A DNA stretch of 37,974 nucleotides, taken from positions 1 to 37,974 of IMG/VR virus record IMGVR_UViG_3300026094_000001. One strand, given 5' to 3'. This document shows, one piece after another, positions 1 through 37,974 of this stretch; positions within the stretch are counted from its first letter, which is position 1, and each line of letters opens with the position of its first letter. Both the position numbers and the translations under genes were made by a program. The notes beneath the pieces are model-generated. The model was not told the DNA's origin. It made no database searches and saw nothing but the letters and a program-made list of their open reading frames with translations. The stretch is from a virus.

Positions 1-90
1 CGGCCATCGCCGTTTCTATTCACGCATCCACCGGATGCGACCCGGTGGTAGCTGGCTTTCGCCCTCTCGCTTATAGCGGAAACGGCACGC
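1..90. repeat. Terminal direct repeat, left copy
   Basis: These 90 bases recur exactly at 37885-37974. An exact short overlap at both ends is what an assembler leaves when a circular or circularly permuted molecule is cut open, so genes should be read as continuous across the joint. The repeat lies in the spacer between avd and the template repeat, and its first five bases are the end of the template repeat. A true physical terminal repeat of this length is possible but less likely. Confidence 0.9.
16..60 (-). ncRNA. Structured spacer between avd and template repeat
   Basis: On either strand this stretch can form two competing hairpins. One pairs CGCATCC with GGATGCG around a 3-nt loop. The other pairs CCACCGG with CCGGTGG. 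In known retroelements of this class the RNA between avd and the template repeat is needed for cDNA priming and Avd/RT binding, so this folded leader is a plausible part of the template RNA. The fold was seen by eye; the function is inferred from the family and from position. Confidence 0.45.
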
Positions 91-111
91 GGTCGTCGTA
101 CACGCTTGCGG

Positions 112-507
112 TCATCGCGTAGATGGCCCCGCTTTTGGTGCAAGCGACCCCGACATCTGACTGCTGGTTTGCGCGGACCATCCGTGAAGCTGGCGGCCGA
201 GACCATCGATATGCTCCATTGCTTTTGCGGCGGCGCCTTTGGATAGGCAGCGCTGCTCCATTGCGACGAAAAGCAGGACATCGAGGCGCGCATTACGCCG
301 CTGCGCTTTATCAATGTGATTGCTTCTCGCATGCCCCTGGAGTCGATTGGCGGTATCGATATCGACAATCAGCTCCACGGACTCAAATAAAAGACGCTGC
401 ACAAGCGTATGGCGCAATTCCTTGGGCGCCTTTTTGGTCGTCTCATGCAGCGTGCTGACAAGCCTCTGCGCTTCTTTATACGCAGGCAGGCTTTTCGACT
501 TTGCCAT
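112..507 (-). CDS. avd: DGR accessory variability determinant (Avd)
   Basis: 131 residues, the usual size for Avd (about 125-130). The protein is helical and basic, starting with a Lys/Ser-rich tip followed by amphipathic helices, as expected for the four-helix-bundle Avd/S23-like family. Avd assembles as a pentamer that binds the DGR reverse transcriptase and its RNA and is needed for mutagenic retrohoming. It begins 20 nt after the stop of the variable tail fibre gene and is followed on the same strand by the template repeat and the reverse transcriptase, the classic order fibre-avd-TR-RT. No strong Shine-Dalgarno precedes the ATG. The family call rests on size, helix content and context. 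Confidence 0.8.
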   Translation of the reverse strand: MAKSKSLPAYKEAQRLVSTLHETTKKAPKELRHTLVQRLLFESVELIVDIDTANRLQGHARSNHIDKAQRRNARLDVLLFVAMEQRCLSKGAAAKAMEHIDGLGRQLHGWSAQTSSQMSGSLAPKAGPSTR

Positions 508-527
508 TAAAGTTCAAAGGGCAAAGG

Positions 528-3500
528 TTAAAGGACGACGCGCCGGACGGGACGCACCGAGCGGTCGGTGTTGTCCTTGAAGTAGGCAGTCTGGTAGCCC
601 TCATAGCCAGAGTACGTGAAGAGCTGGTTCCAGGCACGGCCTCCTTCATCTGCGTCTGTGCTCGACCAGTAACGCTCAAGATCGACCGCCTCAGCGCCGC
701 CGTCCTGGAAGTCCGTCACACTCGTCTGCGATGGATCGCCCGCGGTGTAGGCCGAGGCTGTAGGATCGCTTGACGGGTTAAAGCCGATGTCTTGCGAGCC
801 CGGGAACGTGTATGTGTTGTTGCCCGTATAGTTATCCGCCGTCACTGGCTTCAGGTTCCGGTAGATAAGCTCCAGCTCGTCCATCGCCGGCAGATACCAG
901 TCTGAGCCGCCATCGCTTGGCACCGGATCGCTTGAGCGGATTGAGCGAATATGCTCAAACGCCTCATAAGAGGTGTCGTTTTTCGCAAGGATGTTTTCTG
1001 TCGATGAGAGCCCGTCCCAGCGCGTGAACGACCCAGCCTGGCCCGTGCGATCCTGAGAATCCCACGGCGGGTTGGTTGCGTCCTCAAGGCTCTTAGGAGA
1101 AACCACAAGCGCATACCGCTCACCGGTCTGGTAATCGTCCTGACTGTCGATCGTGCCCGCAACGGTGTCGATGATGCCGACAAGGTAACCGCCCGCGTAA
1201 GCCGAGCCGATGTTGGCAGGATCTTCGGGGTCAAAGAAAACGCTGGCCGTCGTAAAGCTGATCTCCGGGGAGTAGGCGGAAAAGCCGTATGTCGCGCCCT
1301 TGTGGCGAACCTTGACGGTGTAGCTCTCCTGGCCTTCATCGAGCACGCCCGCGGGCACGTCGATGCTCTCAAGGTTGCTAGTGTCCTCGCCTGAATCGAA
1401 CACCTCGACACTGTCGGAAACGCGAGTAATCACCCACTGCGATGACTCATGGGTGTCGCTGCCGTTGACCGTGTTAAAGGCCGACGAGGTAATCGTTGGC
1501 GTCTCGCCGATGTCCGTTGCGTTGTCAGCCGGCGAGGTGACGGTTGGCTGATCGGTAAAGATATCGGCCGTTGTAAACTCGGTGGCCTCAGAAAAATCCG
1601 AGGCGTCCCCGTTTTCATCGGTGTAGCGCACGCGCCAGTAGTAGTTGGTCAGCGTCGAGAGATTGCTGCTCGGCGTATACGTCGTGCTCGTCCCAGAGAC
1701 GGTCTCATCGACGATCGTTGTCGAGAAATCGGAGACTTCTGAAATCTGCCACTGCGCCGAGGCCATCGGGACGCCGTAGAGGCTTCGGTAGGTGGAGGCC
1801 TCAAGCGTGGGCGTTAGCGTCGTGCCTGTCGCCGTATCGCTTGGCGACTCGTTGACGGGCGTTTGTACTAGAGCTCGCTCGGTGGCAGTAATGCTAAACT
1901 CACCAGTTGCGGAGTCGTAGCTCAAGTCACCTGCGGCTGAAAACAGGCCTCGGATTTCCGCGTCTGTTTTCCCCGCCTGGCCCCAGCTGAATGTGCCGTC
2001 GCCGTCAGACAGAAGCGCCTGCCCAGATGTCCCAGAAGTTGCCACCTTGAGCTCATCAGCGCCGATCGAGTCTGCCGTGTTGGCAAGATCGCCGTAGCTG
2101 CCGGTTGTCGCTACCGCTGCAAGCGATGACGACTGAGCGTACTGGCTGTGAGGGTTAGCAGCAGATTCATGAGTGCTTATACCGCTGTTAACGCGAGCGT
2201 CTGCCCTTGCGTCTGTGTAATAAAGGTTAGACGTCCCTTCGCTTAAATCATCGGTACTTTTGCCGCTAAAGTCTGTGTCAAAGTCCGTACTTCCGTAAGC
2301 TGCGGACTGATCTTGGGGCGTATAACCAAGCGCCCCGGTTACGTCTGAAGCCTGTAAGGTGACTGCCCCGTCGCGGCCATTAAAGGAGATCACCGTGCCT
2401 TGGGCAGAAAAAGCTGCGTCCTGCCAGACTGAGCCATCCCAAACGTAGAGCTGTCCGCCTGTAGTGTTGTAATAGAGCGCTCCAGTCGACAATGGGTCGC
2501 CGTCGTTATCTGTCGAAGGCTCTGATGACTTAGCGCCAAGGTACTGGTCGGTGAAATTGTCTAGCGCAGTCTCAGCGTCGGTCGCTGCTGTCTGAGCGTT
2601 TGTTTCGCTACTAGCTGCGGCATTGGCGCTGTTAGCGGCTGCTGTCTCTGAGTCTGCTGCGTTACTTTCCGAGGCAGCCGCGGCATTCTCTGAAGCAAGC
2701 GCATTGGTCGCCGAGGTCTCGGCCTGGGCTGCCGGGGCGTCCCAGTCGTTGCCGTTGTAGAAAAAAACCGCCTGCTCGGTGGTGTCGTAGTAGACCGCGC
2801 CGGCGACGATTGCATTGCCGTCGTTATCCGTGGTCGGCGCTGTGTCAAAAGAGCCAAGGAAGCGGTCGTCGAAAGTGTCGAAGATGTTCTCGGTAGCGTT
2901 TTTCGCCGCAACCGCATCATCCTTTGCCGACACGGCACCGGACTCGGCAGTCTGGGCGTTGGCCTCGCTTGTAGCAGCAGCGGACGCGCTAGACGCAGCA
3001 TTCGACTCTGAAGTCGCTGCATTGGACTCGCTTGTTGACGCAGCGGATGCGCTCGATGCGGCCTTGCTCTCTGACTGGGAAGCATTTTGTTCACTGGTTA
3101 GAGCGTTATTTTCAGAGGTTGCTGCGTTTTGCTCTGAAGTAAAAGCGTTAGATTCGCTCGTAGAGGCAGCGGATGCAGACGCAGAAGATTTAGCTGCGTG
3201 GTGAAGAGCAGAAAAGTCATTTGTGCCGTCGCCACCAGCGTCCACTGATACAGGGGTATCCTCCGGGCTGATAGCCCACTCTTCAGCGTAGCCTTGAGAA
3301 TCCTCTGCATCAGCAGCAGACTGCGGTGCAGTTTGGATAGCAGTTATGTTATCTGCCGCAGTATTCACAGCACTGATGTTAGTAGATACCGTGACAACAT
3401 CTGATAGGTTGTTCGCTACACTTTCTACGTTAGCAATGCTGGCTGCAACTGTACTTATATCTGAATTAGAGCCATTAAGGTCAGATGATAAAGTTTGAAT

Positions 3501-3713
3501 GTCGGAAATGTTTGTAGAAACTGTAGTGACGTCGGAGCTAATCCCAGACACAGTCACCACTTCTGAGTCAATCGCTGCTACATCCGTGATTTGCTGCTCA
3601 ATGTCAGCAACCGCCTGAAGTGCGTCGTTGTCCACGGACTCGATAGCAACAATAGCTTCGTTAATTTTTTCTCTTACGCTTGCGCCGGATTCTTTGTTAG
3701 CAAAAGTAGGCAT
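528..3713 (-). CDS. Tail fibre with DGR-diversified C-terminal DUF1566 domain
   Basis: 1061 residues. Residues 1-150 form a helical attachment region. Residues 170-275 and 328-385 are Ala/Ser/Asn/Glu-rich heptad-like coiled coil. Two related modules, near 285-327 and 391-433, share TDNDG, a GA(V/L)YY(D/N)TT strand and a Trp end. A fibre motif FNGRDGAVTL lies near 444, and fibronectin-like strands span 615-825. The C-terminus, from about 826, is a DUF1566/Lcl-type fold with WYLPAMDEL, YWSST and VRPVRR. Residues 1025-1057 are encoded by the variable repeat, so residues 1031, 1034, 1042, 1044, 1045, 1050 and 1051 are exposed, mutable positions where the template encodes Asn. It probably binds the host receptor at the tail tip. 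Very acidic composition. Confidence 0.92.
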   Translation of the reverse strand: MPTFANKESGASVREKINEAIVAIESVDNDALQAVADIEQQITDVAAIDSEVVTVSGISSDVTTVSTNISDIQTLSSDLNGSNSDISTVAASIANVESVANNLSDVVTVSTNISAVNTAADNITAIQTAPQSAADAEDSQGYAEEWAISPEDTPVSVDAGGDGTNDFSALHHAAKSSASASAASTSESNAFTSEQNAATSENNALTSEQNASQSESKAASSASAASTSESNAATSESNAASSASAAATSEANAQTAESGAVSAKDDAVAAKNATENIFDTFDDRFLGSFDTAPTTDNDGNAIVAGAVYYDTTEQAVFFYNGNDWDAPAAQAETSATNALASENAAAASESNAADSETAAANSANAAASSETNAQTAATDAETALDNFTDQYLGAKSSEPSTDNDGDPLSTGALYYNTTGGQLYVWDGSVWQDAAFSAQGTVISFNGRDGAVTLQASDVTGALGYTPQDQSAAYGSTDFDTDFSGKSTDDLSEGTSNLYYTDARADARVNSGISTHESAANPHSQYAQSSSLAAVATTGSYGDLANTADSIGADELKVATSGTSGQALLSDGDGTFSWGQAGKTDAEIRGLFSAAGDLSYDSATGEFSITATERALVQTPVNESPSDTATGTTLTPTLEASTYRSLYGVPMASAQWQISEVSDFSTTIVDETVSGTSTTYTPSSNLSTLTNYYWRVRYTDENGDASDFSEATEFTTADIFTDQPTVTSPADNATDIGETPTITSSAFNTVNGSDTHESSQWVITRVSDSVEVFDSGEDTSNLESIDVPAGVLDEGQESYTVKVRHKGATYGFSAYSPEISFTTASVFFDPEDPANIGSAYAGGYLVGIIDTVAGTIDSQDDYQTGERYALVVSPKSLEDATNPPWDSQDRTGQAGSFTRWDGLSSTENILAKNDTSYEAFEHIRSIRSSDPVPSDGGSDWYLPAMDELELIYRNLKPVTADNYTGNNTYTFPGSQDIGFNPSSDPTASAYTAGDPSQTSVTDFQDGGAEAVDLERYWSSTDADEGGRAWNQLFTYSGYEGYQTAYFKDNTDRSVRPVRRVVL
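543..641 (-). repeat. DGR variable repeat (VR)
   Basis: Ninety-nine bases at the 3' end of the tail fibre gene align without gaps to 37791-37889. Ten positions differ (562, 563, 566, 580, 581, 584, 589, 614, 622, 623), and at each the template carries T on the plus strand, which is adenine on the coding strand. The GC-rich block 543-561 is identical in both copies and is the expected initiation-of-mutagenic-homology segment at the 3' side. This is direct sequence evidence for past adenine-specific mutagenic retrohoming. Confidence 0.95.
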
Positions 3714-4683: not shown

Positions 4684-5053
4684 TGATTGTGACCTCTTCT
4701 CTCAGGTAAGGCGGCGGCGGAATAATAATAATCACCTGCTCACCCGGAACATCGCTATTAACAGTGAGCGTGTCATCCTCTAGGGTTCCTGATACGCGCC
4801 CGCTTTTTAGAACTTTGTACCATGAACCAACTGGGATGCCGCTAATAGTATTGCTGTCAACAGACAGTTCCATCGGCACCCTTCCTTTAACCTCTTCGGC
4901 GTCTCGATCAAACCAAGCATCGCTCAGCTTTTCGGGCAAGGTGTCTACAACGAACGCATCGTTATCTTCTGTCTGGTAATCTTCAACAGGTGTCTGGACA
5001 GCCTGTAAAATACTGCCTTTCTCATCCACAACAACATAGTTATAAGTTTTCAT
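4676..5053 (-). CDS. Hypothetical tail-module protein
   Basis: 125 residues, mostly beta-strand-like. It starts MKTYNYVVVDEKG and carries a late IIIIPPPPYL stretch where a hydrophobic strand runs into four prolines. It overlaps both neighbours (ATGA with the tail tip gene upstream, 8 nt with the next gene), so it is coexpressed with them. Position between tail tip and fibre suggests a small tip or fibre-attachment protein. I do not recognise a named family. Confidence 0.5.
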   Translation of the reverse strand: MKTYNYVVVDEKGSILQAVQTPVEDYQTEDNDAFVVDTLPEKLSDAWFDRDAEEVKGRVPMELSVDSNTISGIPVGSWYKVLKSGRVSGTLEDDTLTVNSDVPGEQVIIIIPPPPYLREEVTINE

Positions 5054-34384: not shown

Positions 34385-34597
34385 ATGTTTCTGACGCACG
34401 ATGAGCTCGTAGACTTGACCGACCGGGCAAGCCCCCGGCATCAGGCGAGATGGCTCGCAGAGCACGGGTATCCGTTCGAGATGTCGGCGGCAGGCAAGCC
34501 AAAAGTCCTGCGCACCGAGGTCGAGCGGCGATTATCATCCAAGGCCGAGGCCCGCAGCCGTCGGGCCGAGCCGAACTGGAGCGCACTGATTACCTGA
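34385..34597 (+). CDS. DUF4224 protein, probable excisionase-like
   Basis: 70 residues. The start MFLTHDELVDLTDRASPRHQ, then ARWLAEHGYPFEMSAAGKP and VLRTEVERRL is the DUF4224 pattern. Such proteins precede phage tyrosine integrases and are thought to control excision direction. AGGAG lies before the start, and the stop overlaps the integrase start (TGATG). Confidence 0.82.
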   Translation: MFLTHDELVDLTDRASPRHQARWLAEHGYPFEMSAAGKPKVLRTEVERRLSSKAEARSRRAEPNWSALIT

Positions 34598-35586
34598 TGG
34601 GCCGTCGCAGACAGCACAACCGCCACCTGCCCGCGCGCATGCAACTGCGCCGCGGCGTTTACTACCACACCCCGTATATCGAGGGGAAAGTGCGGTGGCG
34701 CTCGCTCGGCCGGGACTATGCCGACGCGCTGAGAGAGTGGGCCGAGCTGGAAGGCCAGCGCGTGACGCCCGGAGAAACCGTCTCGCACGCGATTGATCGG
34801 TACATGATTGATGCCCTGACTGACCTTGGCGAGAGCACTCAGCGCGATTACAGGCGCTCTCTCGGGGTTCTGCGGCAGGTCTTTGGGGATATGCGGCTCA
34901 CCGACCTTAAGCCACACCACGTCGCGCAGATGCTCGACCAGGCAAAGGCCAAGGTCGCGGCCAACAGGCACGCCGCGGTGCTATCGACGGTGTATCAACA
35001 CGCAATGCGATGGGGCTGGGTCGACACCAATCCGTGCAAGGGCGTGCGGCGTAATCGCGAGACCGCCCGCACGCGCTACATCGACGATAACGAGCTCAAC
35101 TACGCCATACAGCACGCGCCGGCGATTATCGGCCTAGCGCTGCAGTTTGCCTACCTCACCGCGCTCGACCTGGGCGACATGCTGCCGCTGCGTCACAGCG
35201 ACATTGTCGATTACCAGGGCAAGCGCGTGATCAAGTCGGAACGAGGGAAAACCGGGCGCACGGTGACAGTCGAAATAACCGAAACGCTCGGCGAGATCAT
35301 CAGAGAGCTGCGGCGGCTGCCGGATCGGCCGGCTTCGGTCTGGGTCATGCCCAACCGGCAGGGGCAGGCGTACACCGTGAGTGGATGGGAATCGGGCTGG
35401 CAGAAGTTCAAGCGCCAGCACTCGATCGACTGGAGATGGAAGGACGTGCGCGCGAAGGCGCTGACAGATGTGAGTCGCGAGAGAGGGCGAGACGCGGCCC
35501 AGGCACTGGCCGCTCACGCATCGGGCACAACGACTGAGGTCTACATCCGAGCCCGCGATCGGGTCATCGTGCAGCCGGTCAGATAG
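34597..35586 (+). CDS. int: Tyrosine integrase
   Basis: 329 residues from the ATG at 34597. An arm-binding start (LRRGVYYHTPYIEGKVRWRS) and a SAM-like core-binding domain (60-150) precede the catalytic domain. Lys218 (GKTG), Arg285 (KDVRAK), His307 (AAHASG) and the nucleophile Tyr316 (EVYIR) are seen. The first catalytic arginine, normally in TGLRxGE, is replaced by Asp191 (LTALDLGDML), and the box II His is Lys282. It should recombine attP just downstream with a tRNA-Lys gene. Whether it is fully active is uncertain. Confidence 0.88.
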   Translation: MGRRRQHNRHLPARMQLRRGVYYHTPYIEGKVRWRSLGRDYADALREWAELEGQRVTPGETVSHAIDRYMIDALTDLGESTQRDYRRSLGVLRQVFGDMRLTDLKPHHVAQMLDQAKAKVAANRHAAVLSTVYQHAMRWGWVDTNPCKGVRRNRETARTRYIDDNELNYAIQHAPAIIGLALQFAYLTALDLGDMLPLRHSDIVDYQGKRVIKSERGKTGRTVTVEITETLGEIIRELRRLPDRPASVWVMPNRQGQAYTVSGWESGWQKFKRQHSIDWRWKDVRAKALTDVSRERGRDAAQALAAHASGTTTEVYIRARDRVIVQPVR

Positions 35587-35658: not shown

Positions 35659-35705
35659 TGGTGGGCCGTGAAGGACTCGAACCTTCAACCAACTGATTAA
35701 GAGTC
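35659..35705 (-). other. attP core: 3' half of tRNA-Lys(CUU)
   Basis: On the minus strand these 47 bases read as the anticodon loop (CTCTTAA, anticodon CTT), the 3' anticodon stem, a 5-nt variable loop, a T arm (GAAGG-TTCGAGT-CCTTC), a 3' acceptor strand and CCA. The 5' half of a tRNA is missing, so this is not a gene. It would rebuild the 3' end of the host tRNA-Lys after integration. It lies 72 nt past the integrase stop. Confidence 0.88.
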
Positions 35706-36211: not shown

Positions 36212-36682
36212 TTAGACGCTGATCCCAAAGATGTCATCGAGCTGCGCCTCGGTGTAGCCAAGCGCAGCGGCGAGCGCCAGCAGGTCTTCGTTTGTGCGCC
36301 AAAACTCATTGGCATCTTCCCAAAGAATTACCGCGCGGGGGTCAGCGTTGGCATCGCTCATCGCGGTTTTGACATTCTCAAGTTCGTCGCGCTCAAGCAA
36401 AGCGAGCTTAAACTCGGCACGGGAGAGCTTCGCCCGATTGCGGGCTTTCTGGCGAGTGCGCTCAATGATATCGGTTTGCTGCCAAGTCCCGTAGACCACG
36501 TCATCTTCTGCGTCGTAGGTGTACGGGTGGGTGTACTCATAGCCCTTGCCATCGGTAGGCTTGGCCTGACCTTTAAGCCTGCGCCAGCCAAGTGCGTGGA
36601 GTCGGTCTTGGCTTGCATTAGCTAGGCTGCCAGGCAGCCCAACCTGCACGACTCGCTCGTCTTTAATCCTTGCCATTGTCAT
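36212..36682 (-). CDS. Tail-associated protein coupled to the reverse transcriptase
   Basis: 156 residues. The C-terminal half (LSRAEFKLALLERDELENVK, then VILWEDANEFWRTNEDLLAL and QLDDIFGI) resembles small proteins encoded beside tail fibre genes in other phages. The middle has YEYTHPYTYDAEDDVVYG. The ATG overlaps the reverse transcriptase stop (ATGA), with GCGAGG upstream, so it is translated with it. It may help fold or attach the diversified fibre; that role is inferred. Confidence 0.65.
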   Translation of the reverse strand: MTMARIKDERVVQVGLPGSLANASQDRLHALGWRRLKGQAKPTDGKGYEYTHPYTYDAEDDVVYGTWQQTDIIERTRQKARNRAKLSRAEFKLALLERDELENVKTAMSDANADPRAVILWEDANEFWRTNEDLLALAAALGYTEAQLDDIFGISV

Positions 36683-37782
36683 GAGTTAGACCTCGCTTTT
36701 GTTAAATTGCGCATGAAAACGACACCGTGCTGTGATGCCTCGATTGCCCATTTCTTTCGGAGTCGGTAGCTGTTGCATCGCCGCGCCAGTGCCAAATAGG
36801 ACGTCACCGTCTCGCCGCGATGCCGATTTTTACTAAGCCCCTCCATCGCCTTATGCCCGCGGCGGGCGGTGCGGCGGCGCAGGTAGGTGCGGTGCGGCCT
36901 GATGAATCGCCCACAGAAATCAAAGCCTGCATCAAGGGGCGCGCATCGGGTCTTTTGCGGGTGAAGCCCTAAACCCACGGCCGTGAGCTCCTCGACAATC
37001 ATCCGGTAGGCTTCGCGCAGCCGGTCGATATCGGCATCCATGAGCACCAAATCATCGACATAGCGCCCGTAATGGCGAACGACGCCGGAGCGCACGAGAC
37101 GCTGATCCATCGCGCTCAAGTAGACATTCGCGCCGAACTGGCTGGTGAGATTGCCAATCGGCAGCCCTCGCCCCGGGCGCGCGTTCCAGAGGCTCTTGTG
37201 CCCGGGGATCAGATCAATGAGCGCGGCATTGCCGGGGAAGTGCGCGTTCTGCGTCACATCGACATTGATGACCTCATTGACCAGGTGCGAGACCCAGGGC
37301 TCATAGCAGTGCGGCATGAGCAGCCGGTGTAAATGCGCCCGCTCGATTGAGGGGAAGAAGTTGCGGATATCGACCTGGAGGATGTAAGCCTTTTGGCTCC
37401 AGCCTCGCGTCACCCGCCTTGCTGCACGCTCGGCCCAATCCGATGCGCCGGTGGTGCCCCGACCCTGAATGCAGGCAAACGTCGTCGCGATCCAGCGCGG
37501 CTCAAAGCGCGGCCGCAGCCGGTTGTAGACCAGGTGATGCACCACCCGGTCGGCAAACTTACTCGCCCAGACCTCGCGCGGCTTTGGGTTCATCACCACA
37601 AAGCACATATGCCCGTCGGGCTTCCAGGTGCAGTCACGCACCTGGTAGTAGATATCCATGATGTTGCGCGAGAAGTTCGTCTCAAACTCCACCGCGGTCC
37701 ACGCGCTGCGCTTATGGCGCCGGCAGCACTCGTAGGCGTGGATGACTTCTTCGACGGTTAGATCAGATGCCGGGGAGGCTAT
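36679..37782 (-). CDS. DGR reverse transcriptase
   Basis: About 367 residues if read from 37782. It has the RT palm motifs LQVDIRNFFPSI, the DGR-specific LPIGNLTSQFGANVYLS with IGxxxSQ, and the YVDDLVLMD catalytic box, then a thumb-like C-terminus. It makes error-prone cDNA from the template repeat, with mistakes at adenines. The first ATG/GTG-type start in frame is GTG at 37692 without a ribosome site, but upstream codons encode the conserved IHAYECCRRHKRSAW N-terminus seen in DGR enzymes. An ATA at 37782-37780 with GGAGG 5 nt upstream is the best start. It is transcribed after the template repeat. Confidence 0.93.
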   Translation of the reverse strand: MASPASDLTVEEVIHAYECCRRHKRSAWTAVEFETNFSRNIMDIYYQVRDCTWKPDGHMCFVVMNPKPREVWASKFADRVVHHLVYNRLRPRFEPRWIATTFACIQGRGTTGASDWAERAARRVTRGWSQKAYILQVDIRNFFPSIERAHLHRLLMPHCYEPWVSHLVNEVINVDVTQNAHFPGNAALIDLIPGHKSLWNARPGRGLPIGNLTSQFGANVYLSAMDQRLVRSGVVRHYGRYVDDLVLMDADIDRLREAYRMIVEELTAVGLGLHPQKTRCAPLDAGFDFCGRFIRPHRTYLRRRTARRGHKAMEGLSKNRHRGETVTSYLALARRCNSYRLRKKWAIEASQHGVVFMRNLTKARSNS

Positions 37783-37787
37783 GACGG

Positions 37788-37792
37788 CCTCC
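37788..37792 (-). promoter_or_regulatory. Ribosome binding site of the reverse transcriptase
   Basis: On the minus strand GGAGG lies 5 nt upstream of ATA (37782-37780), in frame with the conserved reverse transcriptase N-terminus. No ATG, GTG or TTG lies in frame between here and the GTG at 37692. The motif overlaps the end of the template repeat, so the repeat and the start signal are physically joined. Confidence 0.5.
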
Positions 37793-37889
37793 GGACGGGA
37801 CGCACCGAGTTGTTGGTGTTGTCCTTGTTGTTGGCATTCTGGTAGCCCTCATAGCCAGAGTTCGTGAAGTTCTGGTTCCAGGCACGGCC
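37791..37889 (-). repeat. DGR template repeat (TR)
   Basis: Ninety-nine bases aligned without gaps to the variable repeat at 543-641. Read in the fibre frame it is Asn-rich (AAC codons), with segments such as NQNFTNSGYEGYQNANNKDN, and it ends in a stop. The many AAC codons allow adenine mutagenesis to give 15 or more amino acids without stops, as in classical DGRs. The TR lies between avd and the reverse transcriptase; its right end runs into the 90-bp terminal repeat. Confidence 0.95.
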
Positions 37890-37974
37890 ATCGCCGTTTC
37901 TATTCACGCATCCACCGGATGCGACCCGGTGGTAGCTGGCTTTCGCCCTCTCGCTTATAGCGGAAACGGCACGC
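37885..37974. repeat. Terminal direct repeat, right copy
   Basis: Identical to 1-90. Its first five bases are the last five of the template repeat. Joining the two ends gives a continuous fibre-avd-TR-RT cassette. Confidence 0.9.

Follow-up and report, generated by a model that had tools for sequence, protein, structure and literature searches.

A diversity-generating retroelement behind the tail fibre of a lambda-like phage, with a structured RNA on the upstream side of the template repeat

Of the means by which phages diversify host recognition, diversity-generating retroelements (DGRs) are the best known. More than 30,000 of them have been catalogued, and in three of the six clades most members come from phages (PMC8144416). 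DUF1566, a domain with a CLec fold, is reported to be the most frequent target domain of DGRs (PMC6642488). In the DGR of phage BPP-1, the spacer between the template repeat (TR) and the reverse transcriptase (RT) gene, brt, folds, recruits bRT-Avd and primes cDNA synthesis, while a motif in avd terminates that synthesis (PMC12875486). The BPP-1 system has been rebuilt with a reporter target in laboratory E. coli (PMC12875486). A hairpin or cruciform lies 4 nt after the variable repeat (VR) of BPP-1, with an 8-bp stem and the loop consensus GRNA (PMC3240598). A second group of described systems, the RT-15 DGRs, belongs to phages of Pseudomonas, Shewanella and Burkholderia (LPPA56, Cruim01, phPA-G, QDWS and Magia). 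Here, we describe a phage-borne DGR and compare it with these systems, using the BPP-1 record NC_005357 (mtd, avd, TR, brt) both for comparison and as a positive control.

The window, i.e., the whole stretch of DNA that was analysed, is 37,974 nt long. Its ends are identical over 90 nt (1-90 = 37885-37974), so the record represents a circle of 37,884 nt. Once the ends are joined, the parts of the element follow one another on the minus strand: the fibre gene (3713-528), the VR (641-543), avd (507-112), the TR (37889-37791) and the RT frame (to 36679), followed by a gene for 156 amino acids. The features are as follows.

528-3713, minus strand: tail fibre gene, the DGR target; 1061 aa, with a Lcl_C/DUF1566-like C-terminal domain at residues about 914-1057
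543-641, minus strand: variable repeat, in the last codons of the fibre gene
112-507, minus strand: avd, 131 aa
37885-37974, no strand: terminal repeat at the circle joint, with the same letters as 1-90 and collinear with relative L003
37791-37889, minus strand: template repeat, the counterpart of the VR
36679-37782, minus strand: reverse transcriptase; 367 aa when counted from the ATA found in place of L003's ATG
36212-36682, minus strand: 156-aa gene after the RT, PHROG 6034 (unknown function)

The joint is confirmed by L003, an IMG/VR contig that is collinear with the window on both sides and without interruption: L003 451-1368 aligns with window 912-1, and L003 1279-2583 with window 37974-36670. 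A sequence-only reading of the window had rightly proposed that the fibre with its VR, avd, the TR and the RT lie in this order on one strand across the joint, and L003 has the same order with no joint at all. The range to which that reading had assigned the element, 36212-37974, needs amendment, because it contains the TR, the RT and the next gene, whereas the fibre, the VR and avd are found at 112-3713. Several contigs break near the repeats. The window and the near-identical contig L004 both start at most 5 nt from the TR edge (window 1-5 / 37885-37889; L004 at its end), and contig L018 ends inside its own VR. A possible cause of assembly breaks at the TR or VR is diversity of the VR within the sample, and another is the strong folding of the RNA region (1-90). 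L026 (6542) and L027 (6543), related contigs that were assembled from different samples, end at the same point, ~75-80 nt before the expected VR.

The target assignment comes from profile matches. The window domain alone scores 31.7 bits against Lcl_C, below the cut-off of 34.9, and Lcl_C is matched by all 10 relatives. A profile of the domain found no match among PDB sequences, and AlphaFold2 runs on the VR domain, given either 5 or 10 sequences, reached a pLDDT of about 32; that model was not used.

The two repeats can be compared over 99 nt. They differ at 10 positions, and 10/10 of these mismatches fall at TR adenines, with none at the 71 other positions. Adenines occupy 28/99 TR positions, and the chance of all 10 mismatches falling there is (28/99)^10, or ~3e-6. 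We extended the comparison to five phages (the window, L003, L006, L008 and L009), with each VR set against its own TR. The number of adenines changed in the VR is 10 in the window, 18 in L003, 18 in L006, 9 in L008 and 20 in L009, for a total of 75/151; the number of non-adenine TR positions changed is 0/344. The TRs of the five phages differ from one another in non-adenine letters at 15 columns, and in 15/15 of them each VR agrees with its own TR. Such a pattern points to repeated copying from TR to VR, since an undisturbed duplication would not give it. The homogenisation of each VR to its own TR between species supports DGR activity in the past, and bears on the past only. This comparison between species corresponds to the population test for which the sequence-only reading had called. 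Differences restricted to adenines are also seen over the repeat core in three Pseudomonas phages (L011-L013) with two VRs each. Within the population, no VR variation was found in the one near-identical contig available, L004, whose VR is identical; a second near-identical pair, L022/L023, carries no DGR, so that VR variation could not be demonstrated. As a separate observation, six RT-15-type DGRs (L011, L012, L013, L030, L031 and L032) have two VRs per TR.

Both proteins of the machinery have been checked against DGR profiles, as the sequence-only reading had suggested, and both match DGR proteins. Avd scores 41.6 bits against Pfam bAvd (cut-off 40) and matches PHROG 3206 (Avd) at 5.5e-18; against the NCBIfam Avd profile it scores 38.2, below the cut-off of 80. 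The RT matches PHROG 1423 at 2.8e-79, and its best solved relative is PDB 8ub7 (1.5e-32), a 328-aa RT that, going by its length, we take to be the BPP-1 enzyme. The motifs IGNLTSQ and YVDD (the YxDD active site) are present. Further Avd and RT profile searches for DGRs of the window type returned the same contigs only, and RT relatives were absent from the genome contigs searched and from two candidate host MAGs. By its sequence, then, the element is a true DGR of a well-known kind. The profile matches, the adenine-only differences between TR and VR, and the same signature in four related phages all support the proposal that a DGR carried by the phage acts on a fibre that ends in a Lcl_C/DUF1566 domain. 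By analogy, the phage may be able to change its receptor-binding tip.

The rest of the genome indicates the kind of phage. Genes for portal, terminase, major capsid, tape measure, central fibre J, integrase and primase-helicase were identified, and this set of virion, integrase and primase-helicase genes marks a temperate lambda-like phage. Two features bear on the host.

34597-35586, plus strand: integrase, PHROG 1, 2.2e-38
35659-35705, minus strand: attP-like 3' part of tRNA-Lys(CTT), 47 nt, near the integrase

In a collection of 84,980 species, the 47-nt stretch is found exactly in only two of the genomes searched, both of them Ectothiorhodospiraceae MAGs (one named Spiribacter), and in both it lies inside tRNA-Lys. 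The tRNA-Lys(CTT) gene is therefore the likely integration site and, because of this match, the host is probably a halophile of the Ectothiorhodospiraceae. No prophage was found.

The sequence-only reading had called the element complete. All parts are indeed present and in order, but the RT start codon is ATA, and RT output in the window genome is accordingly in doubt. At the start site (window 37780-37782), L003 reads GGAGGCCGTC-ATG and the window GGAGGCCGTC-ATA. Between the last stop in the RT frame (37851) and 37692 there is no ATG, GTG or TTG, and the 337-aa reading from the first GTG (37692) is too short, since the alignment to relatives starts ~30 codons upstream. Among these relatives, L003 starts with ATG, L006 and L008 with GTG a few codons on, and L009 with a probable TTG in the right place. 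A Shine-Dalgarno-like sequence precedes the start.

37788-37792, minus strand: RT-gene Shine-Dalgarno-like sequence, GGAGG, which overlaps the 3' end of the TR

Its GGAG is conserved in all four relatives that have a DGR. An ATG in the spacer of L003 is likewise ATA in the window (CCGCTATAAGCG against CCGCCATGAGCG). From the reading frame, the window RT may be started at AUA, may be an N-truncated product from the GTG at 37692, or may not be made. Translation from AUA would be expected to be weak.

This leads to the strongest competing explanation, namely that the DGR of the window genome has been silenced: the change from ATG to ATA would have turned the RT off or nearly off, leaving the VR frozen and the cassette heading for loss. 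The ATA sits exactly where L003 has ATG, and related contigs show where such a path could lead. In L007 (7998-8499), avd 1-92 is fused to the last ~49 RT residues, and in L025 (4782-5453), avd 1-79 is fused to the RT from residue 225. In L017 (6697-6800), ~13 avd codons remain ahead of the 156-aa gene's homologue, a remnant that indicates deletion rather than ancestral absence. In L020 (1272-1346) and L022/L023 (L022 6712-6780), which lack the DGR, that homologue stands directly behind the fibre. L008 has a single-base avd frameshift (about 4960-4990) in an otherwise intact DGR, which is either real or an assembly error. Against silencing, the RT frame of the window is otherwise intact and VR and TR have no non-adenine mismatch, so that any silencing must be recent. 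Moreover, AUA can start translation weakly, and the ATA is possibly an assembly error. We consider silencing unlikely, though it remains the alternative to be taken most seriously.

Judged by their sequences, the contigs that share this fibre domain can be arranged as a decay series, in which the machinery is often lost and the variable domain retained. The locus thereby adds a small DGR family in phages of probable halophiles, in which one and the same fibre domain is followed by a cassette that is intact, altered in its start codon, truncated or deleted. The 156-aa gene is next to the fibre when the cassette is gone; as a guess, its product is perhaps a fibre assembly protein. The C-terminal half is variable among its homologues.

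In the window, avd and the TR are 106 nt apart, and the TR and the RT 8 nt. The longer of these spacers contains a structured RNA.

6-90, minus strand: structured RNA in the avd-TR spacer, made up of an outer helix plus three hairpins; its DNA is repeated at 37890-37974

The consensus fold 5' of the TR has 30 pairs, 11 of them with changes on both sides, and 0/500 shuffles score as high. The fold pairs 91% of cells, as against 32-50% when it is slid, and each of the five sequences (window, L003, L006, L008 and L009) reaches it independently. In stability, the window is clearly above its shuffles (z -2.9), and the other four range from -2.0 to -0.1. The 5' RNA is thus a predicted four-way junction that is covarying and conserved. 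On the other side of the TR, the 110-165 nt that follow it in the five phages are, on average, no more stably folded than their shuffles, and favourable covariation is absent from their consensus. No Rfam family matches the RNA of the window. In particular, RT-15 (RF03018) has no match at the gathering score in the window, L003, L006, L008 or L009, and permissive searches gave no match in the 3' part of the window or in L006. Conversely, a covariance model of the window-group RNA, itself weak (effective number of sequences 1.19), did not detect the RT-15 loci. The two RNAs share a position and are similar in outline; homology is not claimed.

The RT-15 loci suggest one further element. Just 5' of their outer helix they carry TTGAATCTG, which is complementary to CAGATTCAA at the TR 3' edge. 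Across 86 RT-15-type loci with 12 distinct arm pairs, positions 3-9 of this candidate helix pair in 78/84 cells, with exchanges of G-C/A-T/C-G at position 3 and A-T/T-A at position 5. When the 12 distinct arm pairs are compared at fixed positions, 87.0% are paired versus 83.6% after permutation, and 69/5000 permutations score as high. The corresponding arms in the window are hypothetical.

91-97, minus strand: possible helix 5' arm, GACGACC (hypothesis)
37783-37789, minus strand: possible helix 3' arm, GGCCGTC (hypothesis)

These arms have one A.C mismatch. Those of L009 (GACAATC/GATTGTC) have none, and are the one compensated sequence in the window's group. When helices joining the spacer to the TR edge were searched for freely in the window's group, no excess beyond chance appeared; the evidence for the helix therefore comes from the fixed positions in RT-15-type loci and, within the window's group, from L009. 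A helix from the 5' RNA to the TR 3' edge is thus possible. If real, it would bring both TR ends to the structured RNA and would cover the ribosome-binding site of the RT. Tentatively, we suggest that DGR RNAs have two layouts. In the one found here, the RNA that recruits the RT and primes cDNA would lie 5' of the TR, with the long-range helix to the TR 3' edge rebuilding the primer-template contact of BPP-1's 3' spacer. Since the helix would lie over the RT ribosome-binding site, one RNA could then serve either as template or as RT message.

Alternatively, the mechanism could be exactly that of BPP-1. The priming RNA would then lie 3' of the TR, within the first part of the RT gene, and the 5' fold would be incidental or would do no more than halt reverse transcription at the 5' end of the TR. 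The sequence-only reading had assigned the element to the BPP-1 type, and in its proteins and gene order it does resemble BPP-1. A stop role for the 5' fold is plausible too, given that the avd motif of BPP-1 ends cDNA synthesis (PMC12875486). The type assignment fails for two other elements of BPP-1, the structured spacer 3' of the TR and the GAAA-loop hairpin 4 nt after the VR, both of which are absent. In BPP-1, our searches recovered RF03022 in the TR-brt spacer and the hairpin after the VR. The same scan found no 8-bp GAAA-loop hairpin of this type after the VR of the window, where the nearest candidate has a 7-bp stem and a 14-nt loop, lies 16 nt away, and is not kept in L006, L008 or L009. 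The gap between TR and RT is only 8 nt, as against 144 nt in BPP-1, the sequence after the TR has neither the fold nor the covariation that a priming RNA there would lead one to expect, and the 5' fold covaries strongly. Exact identity with the BPP-1 mechanism therefore seems improbable. An ordinary duplication with an RT from a defence system (DRT/UG) or a group II intron, to whose RT profiles there are weaker matches, can be dismissed with near certainty, given the adenine-only repeat differences in five phages, an RT that best matches a DGR-type RT structure and a PHROG RT family, and the adjoining avd.

Taken as a whole, the data are best explained, with high confidence, by a DGR of a temperate lambda-like phage working as follows. 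One RNA would span the 3' end of avd, the structured element, the TR and the RT start. The RT, together with Avd, would reverse-transcribe this RNA, and errors opposite TR adenines would yield a mutated cDNA. The cDNA would then replace the VR in the last codons of the fibre gene, such that the fibre tip varies at fixed residues. Counting against this account are the lack of a standard start codon at the conserved N-terminus of the RT, the identical VR of L004, the missing BPP-1 hairpin after the VR, the low-scoring model of the VR domain, and the several relatives that do without the machinery. The chemistry of the RT with Avd, retrohoming and the receptor role are carried over from known DGRs; that the 5' RNA does the job of BPP-1's 3' spacer is our own inference. 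With this locus, the priming of cDNA in DGRs that have no 3' spacer becomes a directly testable question.

The element is similar to that of BPP-1 in several respects: (i) the order of VR target, avd, TR and RT; (ii) a homologous RT and an Avd of the same four-helix family; (iii) adenine-specific differences between TR and VR; and (iv) a phage receptor-binding target. It differs in the target itself (Mtd in BPP-1, a Lcl_C/DUF1566-like domain here), in the ATA at the RT start, and in its spacers. BPP-1 has 0 nt between avd and TR and 144 nt with RF03022 between TR and brt, whereas the window has its structured RNA in the 106 nt before the TR and only 8 nt after it. This RNA, absent from Rfam and on the side of the TR where the BPP-1 model has none, is the other thing that this locus adds. 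In BalMu-1, the RT-14 RNA is 3' of the TR, as in BPP-1 and opposite to the RNA of the window. RT-15 DGRs have two VRs per TR rather than one, and their RNAs are not detectably homologous to that of the window by covariance model, but they too have, in the avd-TR spacer, an RNA with an outer helix plus three hairpins, as well as an RT that begins at or near the TR 3' end and is 35-42% identical to the window's, and, in several cases, Lcl_C-like targets. Related systems are those of L003, L006, L008 and L009 from IMG/VR. Their fibre stems are unlike that of the window and their RT start codons vary, but they have the same cassette, upstream RNA and fibre domain, with RTs 54-79% identical to that of the window.
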